Assembly (NCBI GenBank): GCA_029975295.1
Contig: JARKPK010000165.1
Coordinates: 1 to 49,293, forward strand
Reading direction: 5' to 3'
Length of the DNA: 49,293 nucleotides
Source: Thermoguttaceae bacterium
Lineage (GTDB): Bacteria > Planctomycetota > Planctomycetia > Pirellulales > Thermoguttaceae
In this document: piece by piece, positions 15,048 through 39,615 of the stretch
Numbering within the stretch: position 1 is the stretch's first letter
Layout: each line of letters opens with the position of its first letter
The notes under the pieces: generated by a model
Seen by the model: only the letters and a program-made list of their open reading frames with translations
The model's database searches: none
What the model was told of the DNA's origin: nothing
Position numbers and translations under genes: made by a program

Positions 15048-15066
15048 CAACGACAGGTGAATGGAT

Positions 15067-16587
15067 ATGCGACTGTCAATCGGCCAAGACATGCGGATGG
15101 CGCAGAAACAGATTCTGGCCCCGCGAATGATCCAGTCGATGGAGATTCTGCAACTGCCGATTCTCGAGCTCCAGGAGCGAATCGAGCAGGAGTTGCAGGA
15201 GAATCCGGTGCTGGAATTGCGCGAGGAAGAGCCCGAGCTGCCGGCCGAAGCGGACTCCGTTGATTCCCGTGAAATTCCCGACGCCCCGACCGAAGGCGAG
15301 CGCGAACTGGTCATCAACGAAACGACGCAGAATGAAGACGATTTCGAGCGTCTCTGCAACATGGACGAGGAATGCCCCGAGGCATTCAACGAGAGCGTCT
15401 CCCAGTCGCGCGGCGGCATCGAAGAAGCGGCCGAGCGCAAACACGACGCCTTGGCCAACACCCCTGCTCACCAACAGACTCTGCACGACTATCTCCGCGA
15501 CCAATTGGCTTGGTTCGACCTCGACGAAGCGACTCGAGCGATGGCCGAACGCATCATCTACAATCTCGATCCGAATGGCTATTTGCAGGGTCGATTGGAA
15601 GACGTGCTGCCGCCGACGGCCTCGGCCGAAGAGTTGGAACTCGCTCAGTCGGCCCTAAAGCTCGTCCAACGTCTCGATCCGCCCGGGGTCGGCGCGCGGG
15701 ATCTCCGCGAGTGCCTCCTGCTTCAAGTTCGGCCGGGGCAGCCGTTCGAGGAGGAATTGCGGACGTTGATCTCCGACCACCTGGAAGACATCGAGGCTAA
15801 TCGCCTGCCGGCGATCAAACGCAAAACGGGCTGGTCGATCGAGCGGATTCAGGAAGTGGTGACCGAGCTGCGACGACTGAATCCCAAGCCCGGGGCCGAT
15901 TTCTACGAGGAACTCGTTCAACCGGTTACGCCGGACGTTTACGTCGAACAAGACGATTCGGGGCGCTATGTTGTCCGCTTGGACGACGCGAGGCTGCCCT
16001 CTCTCTATATCAGCCCGTATTACCGGCAGCTCCTCGCGGGCGGTCAGGCGGCAACGGAAGCCCGCGAGTGGATCAAGCGCAAGATCAATTCGGCGCAATG
16101 GTTGATTGAAGCGATAGAGCAGCGGCGGCAAACGCTGACGAAGGTGGCGCAAGCGATTGTCGACCACCAAACCGAATTCCTCAACCGCGGCCCCGAGCAT
16201 ATCGAGCCGTTGAAGATGCAGCAGATCGCCGACAAGGTGGGCGTCCATGTCACGACGGTCAGCCGAGCCGTGGACGACAAATGGATTCAAACCCCGCGCG
16301 GCATCTTTCCGCTTAAACGCTTTTTCTGCGGGGGCACCGTCGGGGCCGACGGCGTCGAAGTGGCCTGGGATACGGTCCGCATGAAGCTCCAGGAACTCAT
16401 CGACAACGAAGACAAACAACATCCGCTCAGTGACGAGGAGCTGATGGCCAAAATGGCCGAACAGGGAATCACGGTAGCACGGCGCACGGTGACGAAATAC
16501 CGCAAAGCGATGCGTATTCCCAGCTCGCGGCAGCGACGGGCATGGACCGAAGCCGCCGACGGGCACTCCTCCGCTGAAGAATCTTGA
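15067..16587 (+). CDS. rpoN: RNA polymerase sigma-54 factor
   Basis: Directs RNA polymerase to -24/-12 promoters and needs an AAA+ activator for open-complex formation. The 506-residue protein shows all regions: the Gln/Leu-rich region I at the N-terminus (MRLSIGQDMRMAQKQILAPRM in outline, then IQSMEILQLPILELQERIEQ), an acidic region II at about 48-115, the core-binding domain, the helix-turn-helix (MQQIADKVGVHVTTVSRAVDDK, in outline) and the RpoN box ARRTVTKYR (471-479). ATG 15067 is preferred over 15061 because AGGTGA then has 6 nt spacing. A compatible activator with GAFTGA is encoded at 24058-25431. Confidence 0.95.
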   Translation: MRLSIGQDMRMAQKQILAPRMIQSMEILQLPILELQERIEQELQENPVLELREEEPELPAEADSVDSREIPDAPTEGERELVINETTQNEDDFERLCNMDEECPEAFNESVSQSRGGIEEAAERKHDALANTPAHQQTLHDYLRDQLAWFDLDEATRAMAERIIYNLDPNGYLQGRLEDVLPPTASAEELELAQSALKLVQRLDPPGVGARDLRECLLLQVRPGQPFEEELRTLISDHLEDIEANRLPAIKRKTGWSIERIQEVVTELRRLNPKPGADFYEELVQPVTPDVYVEQDDSGRYVVRLDDARLPSLYISPYYRQLLAGGQAATEAREWIKRKINSAQWLIEAIEQRRQTLTKVAQAIVDHQTEFLNRGPEHIEPLKMQQIADKVGVHVTTVSRAVDDKWIQTPRGIFPLKRFFCGGTVGADGVEVAWDTVRMKLQELIDNEDKQHPLSDEELMAKMAEQGITVARRTVTKYRKAMRIPSSRQRRAWTEAADGHSSAEES

Positions 16588-23931: not shown

Positions 23932-24057
23932 GCTTGATGCACCGTCTCCGAATGATAAGACCGGCGGCCACTGAACGAGGACGTTCTTGGCAACCGAAAA
24001 GTCGCGCAATCAAGTGACCGACCATTTTCCGACCCGATTATGAGGAGCGCCGTTGCC

Positions 24058-25431
24058 ATGACGATCAGCCCGCACCGACGCCTTAAGCTGCTTTTCGCCG
24101 ACGACGAACCATCTCTGCAAGAGCTGATGCGTTGGGAACTGCCACGGCTCGGGCACGAAGCCACGATCTGCCCCGACGGCGCGACCGCCTTGGCGGCGCT
24201 GGAGCGCAACCACTACGACTGCGTGTTGGTCGATCTCGACATGCCGGGGGCCAACGGAATCGAGGTGATCGCCCGGGCCAAGCAGCTTTCGCAAGAAACG
24301 GAAGCGATCGTGCTTACCGGCAAGAGCTCGCTGGAAACGGCGGTGGCCGCGCTCCGCCATGGCGCGTTCGATTACCTGACCAAGCCCTGCCGATTGGTCG
24401 AAATTGAGCGGGTGCTCAACCGCGTGGCCGACAAGCGCGAACTGACCAACAAGTATCGTGCGCTGAAAGCGCGGCTTGATCGCATCGAAGGAGAACCTCG
24501 ACTGATCGGCGAATCGGAGTCGATGCAGCGCGTTCGGCAATTGATCGCATTGGTCGGGCCAAGCGATTCCAACGTGCTGATTCTCGGCGAAACCGGGACG
24601 GGCAAGGAACTGGCCGCCCGAGCCGTTCACGATCACAGCGCGCGGGCCAGCGGCCCATTCGTGCCGGTCAACTGCGGCGCCCTGCCCGAGAACCTGATCG
24701 AAAGCGAGTTGTTCGGCCACCGCAAAGGCGCGTTCACCGGTGCAGACGAGCATCGCGTCGGGTTGATCGAAGTGGCCAACGGGGGCACCCTCTTCCTCGA
24801 TGAAATCGGCGAACTGCCCAAGGCGATGCAGGCGAAACTGCTGCGATTTCTCGAAAGCGGCGAGGTGCGCCGCGTTGGCGAGAACGAGCCTTTTCGTTGC
24901 GATGTCCGCGTGGTTTCGGCCACGAATCGCCGGCTCGACGAGATGGTTGCTGCCGGGGAATTCCGCGAAGACCTTTGGTTTCGCATCAACACCTTCGAGA
25001 TCGCCCTGCCCCCGCTCCGCGATCGCATGGACGACATCGAACTGCTTGCCCGTCACTTCTTGGCACGGCGCGGAACACACCTGGGCGCTGACGATCCGGT
25101 ATTCGATCCTGACACTGCCGCCACGCTCAAGCGTCACAGTTGGCCCGGCAACGTGAGGGAACTAGCCAATGTGATCGAGCACGCGTTGATCCTCTGCGAG
25201 CATCCACCCATCCGGCAAGAGCACCTGCCGCAGCGATTCTGTGCGCCGAAGCCCAGCGCCGCCAAACCAGTTCCTTCCATCAATCTCCGCGAACTCGAAG
25301 CGCATGCCATCCACGAGGCGCTGAGCCGGCACAACGGAAACAAAGCGAAGGCGGCTGAGGAATTGGGCATCAGCCTGAAAACGCTTTACAACAAGCTGAA
25401 TCAATCCCAAACCCTCGGCAAGACTGGGTGA
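24058..25431 (+). CDS. Sigma-54-dependent response regulator (NtrC family)
   Basis: Activates sigma-54 promoters when phosphorylated. The 457 residues hold a receiver domain with acidic pocket ADDEP and phospho-acceptor Asp59 in VDLDMPGANG, and Lys in YLTKP. The AAA+ domain has Walker A LGETGTGKELAAR, the sigma-54-contacting loop GAFTGA (224-229), Walker B GTLFLDEIGELP and arginine-finger region. The C-terminal Fis-type helix-turn-helix is HNGNKAKAAEELGISLKTLYNKL. ATG 24058 is chosen (GAGGAG 10 nt upstream); ATG 24040 is possible. It follows the kinase gene by 126 bases, so they form a two-component pair. Target promoters are unknown. Confidence 0.94.
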   Translation: MTISPHRRLKLLFADDEPSLQELMRWELPRLGHEATICPDGATALAALERNHYDCVLVDLDMPGANGIEVIARAKQLSQETEAIVLTGKSSLETAVAALRHGAFDYLTKPCRLVEIERVLNRVADKRELTNKYRALKARLDRIEGEPRLIGESESMQRVRQLIALVGPSDSNVLILGETGTGKELAARAVHDHSARASGPFVPVNCGALPENLIESELFGHRKGAFTGADEHRVGLIEVANGGTLFLDEIGELPKAMQAKLLRFLESGEVRRVGENEPFRCDVRVVSATNRRLDEMVAAGEFREDLWFRINTFEIALPPLRDRMDDIELLARHFLARRGTHLGADDPVFDPDTAATLKRHSWPGNVRELANVIEHALILCEHPPIRQEHLPQRFCAPKPSAAKPVPSINLRELEAHAIHEALSRHNGNKAKAAEELGISLKTLYNKLNQSQTLGKTG

Positions 25432-34968: not shown

Positions 34969-36735
34969 TTACTCGTCGCGACGACTAGCCGCCTGTTGGA
35001 GCCATTGTGCCCGAAGCAGCATTGCCGGCCGGACCAACTCGGGAGCATCGCCGCGGTACACTTCGATGGCCGCCGGCGCGTCTCCCAACCGTTCGAGCAC
35101 GCGCGCCAAATTGTAGCGAGCCGCCGCCGTCCACGCGCGATCGGCGTCGACCGGCAGCACGCGTTCTTCCAAGTAGTGCCGTGCCGAGGAAAATTTGTCG
35201 CGCTCGTAGGCCAACAGGGCCAGCCAATAGGTGGCATCGAGTTTGGTGCGCTGCGCCAGTTGCACCTGAAGGTTGATCAATGCCTCGATCTGCGCAATCT
35301 CCGCTGCGCGACGATCCTCGGGAATCTGGGCAATCCGTTTTTCCTCTTGGGCGACGATCTTTCGCAATTCTTCGCGCATATCTTCGTTGGCCGGGCGCGC
35401 CTGTTGGTACCACGACGAGGCACTGTCTTCGCCGACGAGCTTGCCTTTCAGGTGAAGCAAGCGCCCCCGGCGAAGCGGCACCGAGTTGCCGTCGCCGTAG
35501 AAATAGCTGAGCGAGAGCAACCGTTGAATCACCTGATCTTTGCTGAATGCCGCACGAATGTGCAACGTGCTCCAGGGCAACTCCCAAAGCGCAACGTCAG
35601 TCACATGCCGAATCTCGCGCCAACGGGCAGCCCGCGACGACGGCGAAGTGCTGAGAACGACTCGATCCATTCCGGTCAAGCGCGACTCGATCAAGCGGCT
35701 TCGCAACGACACGGAAAAGGGCGAAGCGTCGAGCAACACGATCACGCGGTTGAGTTGTTCCGACCGAACCGGATAAGCCCGGCCGCCGGGCCCCTCGATA
35801 TCGAGTTGGCGAAGCAAAGCGACGTCTTCAGCCAACTCAGCCAAGGTGGCGGGCTCAATGCCCAGGCGGCCATCGCTCCAGCTCAAGCCGTCTCGCTTGA
35901 CCAACGGCACACGCAGCAGCGGATCGAACACGTACACTTTGTCGCCGCTGAGCACACCGACCGCCCAAGGCTTCGGCGCCCCTGCTTCGTCGGCCAGCGC
36001 CAACACGGCTGCTTCAATTCCCAATTGACGGGCCAACAAAAGGAACACCCCGGCCCGCTCCCAAACCGATCCTCGCCCGTAAAGCAACGTTTCCCACGGA
36101 ACCTGCGGCACATCGCTTGGGTTGCCGTCGGCCGTCAGATCGTCGCCGATGTTCCGCATCGTCCAGTCGAAAAGAGATTGGGCGCGGCTCAAGTCGTCAA
36201 GCCGATCGCCATGAGCCCATCGGGCAACATCGCGCATCCAGACAGCCTCGACCAGTGCGAAACCGTCGTAGTCGTCGAAGCTCAACGCATCGAGCCGCCG
36301 GAGCTGGGGCAATTCTTGCAACGGCGCGGGCAGCGATTTGAGCATCGGATCGGCGGTCCAGCTGGCGTCTTTTGCAGAAGCCCCTTGCATCCAGAGATTC
36401 AGCCGATCGACGATTTGCCTGAGCACCGGCGGCTGCGGCCATGTGGCCCACAGCGGGTCCTTCTGCGCGCGCCGCAATGCTTTTTCCGGATTCTGGGCGA
36501 TGTCCATCCGCCGCACAACATCGGCGAACACACCGCCCGCGTCGAACTCTTCCAACGCGCTGAGGCTGCTCACGGCCGAAGCGAACAAATCGTCGCGATA
36601 GACGCGTTCGGCTCGGGCACGGCTCGCAGCGCCCCCGGTGGAACCCTGCCGGCCACAACCACACAAACCGGCTCCGGCCAACACCGGCAACCAAGCCAGA
36701 AGACAAAGCGTCCATCCGCGTACGGCAACATTCAT
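34969..36735 (-). CDS. Probable lipoprotein with degenerate transglutaminase fold and C-terminal TPR
   Basis: A 588-residue protein with a lipoprotein-like N-terminus (hydrophobic to LCGC, lipid-modified Cys27 likely), so probably envelope-anchored. Residues about 187-275 resemble a transglutaminase core: [36 protein letters not shown], then KPWAVGV and VYVFDPLL. The catalytic Cys position is Val224 and the His position is Lys/Pro; only Asp271 is kept, so it should be inactive as a transglutaminase. The C-terminus has a TPR-like repeat ([22 protein letters not shown]). Its ATG overlaps the kdsA stop (ATGA), which shows translational coupling to lipopolysaccharide synthesis. Function unknown; a scaffold or binding role in the envelope is an inference. 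Confidence 0.75.
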
Positions 36736-37583
36736 GAACCGCTCTCCACCACGCTGCGCAAGGCCAACAAGCGATCAATCATGGCGGGCATGCCGCTAAG
36801 CGGAACCATGTTCGGACCATCGCTCCATGCCCGATCGGGATCGGGATGCGTTTCAAAAAACAACCCGTCAACTCCAATCGCAACCGCTGCGCGGGCCAGC
36901 GGCTCGACCATCGCCCGACAGCCGCCAGTGGCCGTTCCCAATCCCCCGGGCCTTTGAACGCTATGCGTGGCGTCGAAGACGATCGGCGCGCCCAGCGCCC
37001 GCATCTCGACCAACGCCTGCATGTCGTTCACCAACCGCCCATACCCGAAAAAAGTGCCCCGTTCGGTCAGCAGCACGTTCGAACACCCGCCGCTGGTCAC
37101 CTTTTCCACAACGTGAGCCATGTCGCCCGGGGCGAGGAACTGGCCTTTCTTCACGTTCACCGCCCTGCCGGTTGCAGCCGCCGCAAGCAACAAGTCGGTT
37201 TGCCGACACAAAAAAGCCGGTATTTGCAGCAAGTCGCACACTTGGCCCACCGGCCCCGCCTGATCAGGCAGATGGACGTCGGTGGTGACGGGCACGCCAA
37301 ACTGCTCGCGAATACGCTGCAAAATCGCCAGGCCCCGATCTAGCCCCGGTCCGCGTGCCGACGATCCGCTCGTGCGATTCGCTTTATCGAAAGACGCCTT
37401 GAATATCAACCGAACGGGCCGTTCGGCCGCCATACGAACCAATTCCGCGGCGATCTCGATGGTTCGTTCTTCGCTCTCAATCACGCAAGGACCGGCAATC
37501 AGCAACAGCGGCTCACCGCGGCCACAGCGATACGGTCCAACCGTGGCTGGATTTTGAGGCGGGGTTTTAAAATTCGGCGCCAT
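36732..37583 (-). CDS. kdsA: 3-deoxy-D-manno-octulosonate 8-phosphate synthase, metal-dependent class
   Basis: Condenses phosphoenolpyruvate with arabinose 5-phosphate to KDO 8-phosphate for lipopolysaccharide. The 283 residues include [44 protein letters not shown] and [10 protein letters not shown]. The four metal ligands of the metal-dependent class, as in Aquifex, are all seen: Cys33 (AGPC), His207 (DATHSVQ), Glu244 (FFETHP) and Asp255 (WSDGPN). The E. coli-type enzyme has Asn in place of that Cys. The start lacks a good ribosome binding site. The next gene overlaps the stop by 4 bases. kdsB, kdsC and kdsD are not nearby. Confidence 0.94.
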
Positions 37584-37690
37584 GGCAATTCATCAATGCG
37601 ATGATGAAACACTGCTCGTTCAACTTGTCTTGCCGACCGAAGCACCGGACTTCGGCGCAAAACTCCTTGCCCATGTTGTGACGGGTACCA

Positions 37691-37915
37691 GTCATTCCGG
37701 CAAGGGGGCGAAGAGAAGACGACGTGACGCCCTGCACTCTCCCCTGCCCCGCCATGCCGCTGACCGACGGCCTGCGGTTGGCGCCCCACAGTCGGGACCA
37801 TCCGCGCCACGTCATCCCCCGCCACGGCTGGCGCCCACGCTGCGCACGATTCCAGCCCCAGCCCGCCCTCGCCAACCGAGCCCCGCCCCCCGGGCTGCCA
37901 CTCACTCAGAATGAC
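37691..37915. mobile_element. MITE-like element with imperfect terminal inverted repeats
   Basis: The segment begins GTCATTCCGG (37691-37700) and ends TCAGAATGAC (37906-37915), which is GTCATTCTGA on the other strand: 8 of 10 bases agree as inverted repeats. It is 225 bp, very GC-rich and without a coding frame. Ends of the GTCATTC type are familiar from intergenic repeat families in several bacterial phyla. No target duplication is obvious and no second copy is in the window, so the call rests on shape alone. Confidence 0.35.
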
Positions 37916-38592
37916 CGTCGATGCGCCGCGCGCCAAGTTCCACCCCTAATCGGAACGATAGTCGCGACACGGCCGCCGACCGTTCGAACAAATTGAACGA
38001 TAGCAACAGTCCACCGCTATCGAGATCGAGCTCGTGACACCGGCGCGCCCGCGACCGTTCGCCGCAGCAAAACCTTCAATGGCCGGCAACGCGATCCGAG
38101 AGTATTCGCCCACATCAACCTCCTGTACGCAACAGCAGCACGGGATAGCATGTGAGTTCTTTGTTATGAACGAATTTGGTTTCGACCGGGCGGAGCTGCC
38201 CCCCTGACGACCGTAAACCACCGGCAAGACCATCGTGGCGGGCCCCCGCACATCGAAAAATCTCAACGAGCCTTCCATCCGCATGTCGGCCATGCGCTGG
38301 GCCGAGCCCTGTGTTCGCCACCCCTACACGTCGGATATCCCGCCCAATCCACAAGATTGGCCACCCGGTCTAGCTTCAACGTTCAGCCGATACCAACGCC
38401 GCTCTACCCAAGCCCCGAGGTGTCGCCTGCATTCCCCCGGAGTTGTTCTTTCACCGAACACCCAATACAGCAGAATCAAACAGATCGATGCTGACCACTC
38501 TCCGGTCCCAAGGGCGCAACCGAAGGCGAAACAAGCCGCAACCCCTTTGCCAATTACGCATTAGGCGCATCCGCAAGCATCATTTCCGGTAT

Positions 38593-38607
38593 TGGCACGC
38601 CAGATGC
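38593..38607 (+). promoter_or_regulatory. Sigma-54-like -24/-12 motif
   Basis: TGGCACGCCAGATGC keeps the invariant GG-N10-GC spacing, a perfect TGGCAC at -24 and ATGC (consensus TTGC) at -12. Transcription would start near 38619, about 47 bases before the structured element. About one match this good per window can occur by chance, so the position is what makes it interesting. Confidence 0.35.
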
Positions 38608-38665
38608 GTAGACGGTTAATCGTGGCCGTCGGCACCGCTGGCGACCCAATCGAAAGTCTGGCCCG

Positions 38666-38760
38666 TGGGGCTTCTGACGTCGGTTTCCGGACGGTTGCCT
38701 TGCCCTTATCGTCCGGAATGCCACTGTGGGAGGTGGCACGTCGGAGGCCCCAATTTTTTT
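38666..38760 (+). ncRNA. Three-way-junction structured RNA ending in a T tract
   Basis: Basal stem P1 pairs 38666-38679 (TGGGGCTTCTGACG) with 38739-38752 (CGTCGGAGGCCCCA): 14 bp including two G-T wobbles. Inside it, after a 5-base joint, P2 pairs 38685-38693 (TTCCGGACG) with 38710-38718 (CGTCCGGAA), 9 perfect bp with a 16-base loop. P3 then pairs 38719-38724 (TGCCAC) with 38733-38738 (GTGGCA), 6 perfect bp with an 8-base loop. P2, P3 and P1 abut without linkers, so the junction is closed. After P1 come A and seven T (38754-38760), as in an intrinsic terminator. No plus-strand protein gene lies upstream, so the transcript it ends would be non-coding; alternatively it is an attenuator in the leader of the FliL-like gene 328 bases on. 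It matches no RNA family I recognise. Confidence 0.5.
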
Positions 38761-39087
38761 GTAAATATCTGGCGCTCATCGGCCATGAACTACGCTTTCA
38801 GTGGGACCAGAGTGCGGTTCTTGTTCGCGTTCGGCGATCCAATCGCCGCGCTTGCCGCAAGCATTCGATGAGTCGGCCTGGCGGTGGGGCGGTGCCGGCC
38901 GTTCACACGGACTCGCACTGGAAGACAGCGAATTCGATCGGGAGAGCCGGGCGACCGTTTTTCATTTCAGATGTGGCAGGCAGCGGAGTGGAGCTTTAGC
39001 CAGTTCCCTCGGGCCTGGCGCCCGCGCCCCCCCATTGCAAACCGCAAGCCGAACCAACCATCCCTCGTTCGCGTGCGAGGACGTCTC

Positions 39088-39615
39088 ATGGCCGTCAAAA
39101 CCGAATCGCGCGACACCGTCGAAACTCCGGCTCCGGCAGCGCCACAGGAGAATCAAGGGCGGTTCGCCGGCATCGCCGTCGCCGCACAGAAATGGGGGCT
39201 GACCATCGTTGCCCTCAGTCTGCTGGCCGCAGCGATCGCGGTGGCCCTAAACCGCTCGGAAACGGCTTCGGTCACCGATCCCGGAACGACGCAGCCGCCA
39301 CCGGCCGAAGTCGATTTGGGTCGCTTCGCCGTAGCGCCGATCAATTCGGGCAGCACTTCGCCCGCGATGGTCGAGTTCCAACTCCACGTGACCTTGGCCG
39401 ATCAGCGCGACGGGCCGGCGCGTCATCAGCTTGAGGTGCGGCAATTCCGAGTGCGCCAACACGTTGAAGAGCTGCTCCGCCGAGCCACCATCGACGATTT
39501 CGACGACGCAACGCTTGTCGGCCTGAAGCGGCAGATTCAAGCGCAAATCAACGACTGCCTTGAGCTTCAGGCCGTGCGCGATGTGATCATCACCGATCTG
39601 CGGCTGACGAAATGA
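39088..39615 (+). CDS. FliL-like single-pass membrane protein
   Basis: A 175-residue protein with a polar cytoplasmic N-terminus (1-35), one transmembrane helix (about 36-55) and an outer domain. The outer domain resembles FliL: EVDLGRFAVAPINSG, VEFQLHVTLADQ, then a helix with HVEELLRRATIDDFDDATLVGLKRQIQAQIND (in outline) and the closing strand VRDVIITDLRL. FliL itself stabilises flagellar stators, but no flagellar gene is in the window, and the family includes non-flagellar members with stomatin-like roles. ATG 39088 is chosen because GAGGA lies 8 nt upstream; the frame is open further back without support. Convergent with the HD-domain gene, 30 bases away. Confidence 0.65.
   Translation: MAVKTESRDTVETPAPAAPQENQGRFAGIAVAAQKWGLTIVALSLLAAAIAVALNRSETASVTDPGTTQPPPAEVDLGRFAVAPINSGSTSPAMVEFQLHVTLADQRDGPARHQLEVRQFRVRQHVEELLRRATIDDFDDATLVGLKRQIQAQINDCLELQAVRDVIITDLRLTK

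Follow-up and report, generated by a model that had tools for sequence, protein, structure and literature searches.

The plus-strand element at 38658-38761 of the window (by which we mean the whole 49,293-nucleotide stretch analysed, contig JARKPK010000165.1 of a Thermoguttaceae bacterium) is, on comparison with related genomes, a real and conserved RNA gene. Its conservation with compensatory changes, its promoter and terminator, the promoter architecture that it shares with another gene and its distribution are all established by such comparison. Regarding what the RNA does, we think it probable that it is a stand-alone regulatory RNA of about 140 nt, driven by sigma-54, which would act in trans by pairing with mRNAs. 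The family appears to be new, while small RNAs driven by sigma-54 are already known as a kind, GlmY being the example.

The core of the RNA consists of a closed three-way junction followed by seven T. RNA folding assigns 38660-38765 a minimum free energy of -53.8 kcal/mol (z = -4.41), and none of 200 dinucleotide shuffles was equally stable. The junction (38666-38752, +), which is seen both by folding and by counts of pair changes, is built from three plus-strand stems as predicted by folding: a basal stem P1 of 15 bp (38666-38680/38738-38752), a stem P2 of 11 bp with a 12-nt loop (38685-38695/38708-38718) and a stem P3 of 6 bp (38720-38725/38732-38737). The 3' arm of P1 and the T run at 38754-38760 together form a predicted intrinsic terminator (38738-38760, +). 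A T-rich end, with at least five T in the final nine bases of the core match, is present in 36 of 41 homologues. A simple terminator scan, which admits loops of 3-8 nt only, reported none here. Among the homologues the core is 98-105 nt long. Stop codons occur in frames one, two and three of 21, 17 and 34 of the 41 homologues; since every frame is interrupted in many of them, the RNA is not coding and we rejected a protein-coding reading.

Most of this structure had been noticed in a first-pass annotation of the same DNA, which considered three nested stems followed by a T run unlikely to arise by chance. The shuffles (0/200) and the seven T agree with that judgement. The lengths given there for the stems were 14, 9 and 6 bp; the last is exact, and the other two are slightly short of the 15 and 11 bp obtained by folding. 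A contact between GGG in one loop and CCC in the other had also been suggested. It is possible in the sequence of the window, but it is not a conserved feature, because only 6 of 41 P3 loops contain GGG and only 16 of 41 homologues have a Watson-Crick complement of at least 3 nt between the P2 and P3 loops. The kissing loop was therefore rejected.

When 38400-39100 was compared by blastn with a sample of 60 genomes, its own included, the matches formed one sharp block at about 38658-38761. The block was covered over nearly its whole length in 24 of the 59 other relatives, at 71-82% identity, and the remaining matches were short and weak. In its own genome the sole full match was the element itself; six others extended over 14-22 bases with E of 0.9 or worse. 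A first covariance model was built from an alignment of 20 copies that had been made without regard to structure. In that alignment 13 of 26 pairs show double-sided changes, 95.4% of cells are paired and none of 500 shuffles scored as high. We then have a second set of 41 sequences from 18 families (f8 is not among them), comprising the copy in the window and 40 others chosen by family and contig size from among the matches listed, some of whose genomes overlap with the first 20. In the alignment of these 41, which was fitted to the covariance model and so favours the structure, 23 of 27 pairs carry double-sided changes, again with no equal among 500 shuffles, and the number of double-sided cells is 176 compared to a shuffled mean of 45.4 and to 33 at most in slid versions. 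A covariance search had been recommended in the first-pass annotation, and the compensatory changes that it might reveal are thus present in relatives.

Of 396 genomes from the order Pirellulales, 216 contain a match to the covariance model. There is one match in 213 of these genomes and two in each of the other three (G378, G154 and G217). The matches span 19 family labels (f1-f20 without f6). The edges of this distribution are soft, as the search used strict filters. G077 was missed by it, yet carries the RNA according to a broader model (E 1.5e-11); G018 gave a weak match with the first model (E 0.0067) that the broader model did not confirm (E 2.7), and is included in the 216 but scored as lacking the RNA in the co-occurrence table discussed below. 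A search of named genomes with the core pattern led to 15 MAGs of planctomycetes, of which 7 bear the label Pirellulales. Outside that order no convincing match emerged from two phylum samples of 392 genomes: three weak matches (E about 1e-3) disappeared with the broader model. No match was found in plasmids. Within the order, the RNA was not found in G087 and G115, both 99% complete, even with laxer filters.

The strongest clue to the control of this RNA is one that the first-pass annotation did not contain. A predicted sigma-54 (-24/-12) promoter, TGGCACG-N4-ATGC (TGGCACGCCAGATGCG), lies at 38593-38608 (+). Measured against the -24/-12 consensus, it scores 15.2 of 16.4 with correct spacing, and none of 200 single-base shuffles scored as high. 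An element scoring at least 13.7 of 16.4, a level reached by at most 2.5% of single-base shuffles, is present at 38 of the 41 loci; the other three (L085, L087 and L088) have no recognisable sigma-54 site. A sigma-70 scan at the RNA locus found nothing. The -12 GC sits 38-60 nt before the core in 30 of the 38 loci with an element. At L114 the gap is only 15 nt, so the RNA there would start almost at the core. Judging from promoter spacing, the transcript in the window would begin near 38619, some 12 nt downstream of the -12 GC, which gives a putative 5' leader at 38619-38657 (+). The sequence of the leader is variable, but in relatives it tends to form hairpins: 41 of 50 leaders have z < -1 compared to single-base shuffles, with a mean z of -2.6 (3 of 53 leaders were too short to fold). 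The gene for sigma-54 itself, rpoN, is within the window at 15061-16587 (+), about 22 kb from the RNA, and the RpoN DNA-binding domain is matched in 58 of 60 relatives.

Upstream of the promoter there is a 27-bp palindrome, roughly GYAAS-N17-STTRC, of the kind to which a bEBP might bind. It was first read by eye, and its matrix was then refined without position information on 53 regions, of which the 41 loci contributed 38 and the first set 15. The score of the palindrome alone is not decisive, as reversed sequences exceed 5 bits in 21 of 53 cases. Its fixed distance from the promoter is decisive. In 38 of 53 regions the best palindrome scores more than 5 bits at a distance of 36-42 nt upstream of the -24 element. 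With a slot of 7 nt out of about 150, the corresponding binomial probability is about 1e-38; this should be read with reserve, since those very regions had supplied the first consensus and the slot was picked with the data in view. Four further regions have the palindrome 27-28 nt before the -24 element. The weak candidate palindrome of the window itself (38538-38564, +; 4.5 bits) is 28 nt before the -24 element, about one helical turn nearer to the promoter than usual, and is not significant alone.

Which activator might be involved cannot be named, because 48 of 60 genomes have at least 21 NtrC-type matches. An NtrC-type enhancer-binding protein with receiver, AAA and HTH_8 domains is encoded at 24040-25431 (+), some 13 kb from the RNA, and may be regarded as a candidate activator. 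PrsR (TIGR02915), the activator of the PEP-CTERM regulon, was rejected, as 0 of 60 genomes were above its cut-off. Sigma-54 activator-type matches are few, 5-16 per genome, in several relatives without the RNA (G008, G009, G017, G019, G020, G021, G024 and G028). In five others without it (G016, G018, G033, G036 and G041) the number is 23-25, which makes the link a partial one.

The same combination of palindrome and promoter was sought elsewhere in 60 relatives. The enrichment is mild, with 65 matches compared to 47 in the reversed control. Promoters of the RNA itself account for six of the 65, and of the other 59 we examined 20, selected by eye for their good palindromes. Behind these 20, an uncharacterised protein about 300 aa long recurred three times, and a fourth case (G001) was added later; two types of glycosyltransferase and an HTH-like protein were also seen. 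The same palindrome and promoter precede, in three genera (L179, L190 and L195), a protein of about 130 aa that resembles response regulators; a Pfam receiver domain was confirmed for it in L190 only.

The uncharacterised protein has orthologues in 30 of 40 relatives. A sigma-54 element lies upstream of 29 of these 30, compared to 6.5% of 1089 control windows, which were drawn from RNA loci rather than from the genomes of the orthologues; shuffling the upstream regions leaves a mean of 1.45 of 30. A palindrome of at least 7 bits together with a promoter at 36-42 nt is found for 16 of 30 orthologues and in 0 of 1089 controls. Since G016, G010 and G001 had originally been picked by this joint pattern, the independent count is 13 of 27. 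Under the same rule the RNA itself scores 30 of 41. The sole orthologue without the promoter is that of G041, a genome that also lacks the RNA. Across genomes, 27 have both the RNA and the protein and 7 have neither, while 3 carry the RNA alone and 3 the protein alone (Fisher p = 6e-4, a test that ignores the relatedness of the genomes). In the genome under study the palindrome of the gene with the shared promoter is weak too (0.3 bits). From promoter architecture and co-occurrence together we conclude that the RNA and the gene for this protein very probably belong to one sigma-54 regulon. The protein (L258:1432-2295 and orthologues; about 290 aa) is predicted to be all-helical with a mean pLDDT of 83. 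It gave no match in Pfam or NCBIfam (E 0.01), among PDB sequences (E 1) or with Foldseek (E 0.001).

The neighbourhood of the RNA is conserved on one side only. Upstream, at 36732-37583 (-), is a gene for a KDO-8-phosphate synthase-like protein (Pfam DAHP_synth_1, E 3.2e-65), which we take to be kdsA, Pfam giving the wider family only. That the nearest upstream gene is kdsA on the other strand had been stated in the first-pass annotation, correctly so. Of 41 loci, 36 have this gene upstream and divergent; a gene for a transglutaminase-like protein is upstream in 35 and one for a DAGK/YegS-like lipid kinase in 20. In the window, about 1 kb without a conserved gene (37584-38590) separates kdsA from the RNA, and tblastn found no remnant of a DAGK-like gene in this gap. 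Since its transcription leads away from kdsA, the RNA is not an antisense transcript of that gene. Downstream, the genes vary: even the commonest protein that begins within 3 kb is shared by no more than 7 other loci. The first-pass annotation had offered the element as a small RNA or as a leader of the FliL-like gene that follows. Structure and compensatory changes uphold a small RNA with an intrinsic terminator. The leader goes the way of the kissing loop, because downstream genes are not conserved across the 41 loci and a role in cis for the FliL-like gene is thus unlikely; the FliL label is itself weak (23.9 bits compared to a cut-off of 24.6). The same variability points to a role in trans.

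If the RNA acts in trans, one would like to know which part of it meets a partner. The least variable parts of the core in the 41 sequences are its 5' YGGCCCG end and the UUGCCC of the P2 loop, so that GCCC occurs twice in the RNA. The 5' motif (CUGGCCCG; 38658-38665, +) is YGGCCCG at the same position in all 41 homologues and UGGCCCG in 40 of them. Folding the core alone leaves it unpaired in all 41 predictions; with the putative leader included this holds for only 26 of 38 homologues, and in the window it is predicted to pair with the leader (unpaired probability 0.07). The P2 loop (38696-38707, +) contains TTGCCC in 38 of 41 homologues and is predicted to be mostly unpaired in every one of the 41 cores, as in all 38 transcripts consisting of leader and core. 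Since accessibility of the 5' motif is unreliable once the leader is present, we take the P2 loop, on grounds of conservation and predicted accessibility, as the main candidate for a pairing seed.

Other explanations should be considered. An RNA driven by sigma-54 might bind a protein rather than mRNAs, serving as a sponge or decoy in the way GlmY does for RapZ or CsrB for CsrA. The compact conserved fold, the mostly single copy and the presence of GCCC in both the 5' motif and the P2 loop would suit such a function, and PMC12316311 is cited in its support. The protein partner would be hypothetical, however, and the RNA displays short invariant open stretches. Stretches of this sort are typical of pairing seeds. 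As for CsrA, its GGA motif occurs within or near the P3 loop in only 14 of 41 homologues, and this lack of conservation speaks against a CsrA sponge. We consider binding of a protein the chief alternative, though somewhat unlikely overall. A different arrangement would have the 5' GGCCC pair with GGGCC of the terminator stem, making the RNA an attenuator or ligand-responsive leader that allows read-through into the next gene. The alternative 5-bp hairpin can indeed form in most homologues (98.0% of cells paired), but it shows no double-sided change and does no better than its own shuffles. With variable genes downstream and no Rfam riboswitch match in the window, an attenuator seems improbable.

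Two simpler possibilities fare worse. A housekeeping RNA that has diverged (6S, SRP, RNase P or tmRNA) would also be structured, about 100-140 nt long and usually present in a single copy. Such an identity is very improbable given that neither the window nor 20 homologous loci match one in Rfam, that the RNA was not found in the near-complete genomes G087 and G115 of the same order and that its promoter is of the sigma-54 type. Finally, a T run after a basal stem is what a plain terminator or a chance hairpin between genes would look like. Conservation, compensatory changes, the promoter and the distribution refute that this is all there is, and the probability that we leave to it is negligible.

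We return to the RNA that pairs with mRNAs in trans. An inducible type of promoter, a leader hairpin, a compact core whose open loop is conserved, a terminator and the lack of a linked target fit such an RNA, and its mode of action could be as follows. A bEBP bound at the upstream palindrome would activate sigma-54 RNA polymerase at the -24/-12 promoter. Transcription would start near 38619 and produce the variable 5' hairpin first; the conserved three-way-junction core would come next, and the P1 terminator would bring transcription to an end. Through its open P2 loop, CUUGCCC, the RNA would then most likely pair with target mRNAs bearing GGGC-type sites, and pairing would alter their translation or stability. 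The 5' UGGCCCG may serve as a second seed that is free or hidden depending on the leader.

Some results speak against this reading: the palindromes of the RNA and of the shared-promoter gene are weak in the genome under study, three of the 41 loci lack a recognisable sigma-54 site, the 5' motif is predicted to be paired in the window, and no convincing target and no Hfq came out of the searches that follow. In the genome under study, GGGCAAGG occurs shortly before ATG 64 times compared to 13 in a reversed control. This excess is uninformative because many of the sites are inside long reading frames, which enrich such words; a few are at apparent gene starts, for example at L210. Near the starts of the DAGK, kdsA, transglutaminase-like and uncharacterised genes, complements of the seeds occur at around background. 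For the 6-mer of the loop the counts are 2 of 20, 6 of 36, 2 of 35 and 0 of 30, respectively, compared to 8.7% of windows. A search for Hfq (PF17209) was negative in the one genome under study and positive in 5 of 14 control genomes. A broader and more tentative suggestion can be made. There might exist in Pirellulales an undescribed sigma-54/bEBP regulon in which this RNA with its two GCCC is a global post-transcriptional arm independent of Hfq, controlling a switch of envelope or life style together with the all-helical protein and surface-polysaccharide genes. We regard this as possible rather than probable.

Few small RNAs have been described in planctomycetes, and the one reported here is distributed across one order and usually single-copy. 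A review of 2022 counts 8 distinct annotated sRNAs in the whole PVC group (PMC9029176). Since promoter, start, end and fold are all predicted, the RNA is directly testable. It opens a way to study post-transcriptional control in an organism where Hfq was not found. The palindrome and the partner gene in turn define a sigma-54 regulon that can be traced in other genomes.

How does this RNA compare with what is known? An Rfam scan, also recommended in the first-pass annotation, returned no family in the window at the gathering threshold and none on the plus strand of 38100-39100 with E up to 5; the 20 homologous loci, with E up to 0.5, gave three tRNAs only. The Guanidine-III riboswitch (RF01763) has a chance-level match on the other strand (15.7 bits, E 1.4, gathering 36) and, in contrast to a riboswitch of this kind, the present RNA has no conserved downstream gene. 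We found no description of the RNA in the accessible planctomycete literature. One possible prior claim may remain, and it can be compared by description only. The Rhodopirellula-1 motif of Weinberg et al. 2010 is a candidate RNA reported from Planctomycetes (PMC2864571). In the table of that paper it is described as of uncertain structure, probably cis-regulatory and found in Proteobacteria and Planctomycetes, apparently without an Rfam accession as the layout reads. The present RNA is set apart from it, by that description alone, in that it looks trans-acting and was found in one order only.

The closest parallel in kind is GlmY/GlmZ of Enterobacteriaceae. According to PMC6075780, the sigma-54 promoter of GlmY is activated by QseF at palindromic sites with the consensus TGTN12ACA. 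The palindrome described here differs from that consensus, and the RNA does not match such families in Rfam. The GlmY/GlmZ locus is beside qseEGF, whereas our RNA is beside kdsA; its genome gave no Hfq, and its mode of action is our proposal. What the two have in common is the overall plan: a stand-alone sRNA gene with a sigma-54 promoter and, upstream of it, palindromic sites for a bEBP, a presumed one in our case. In Enterobacteriaceae, this plan is tied to functions of the envelope.
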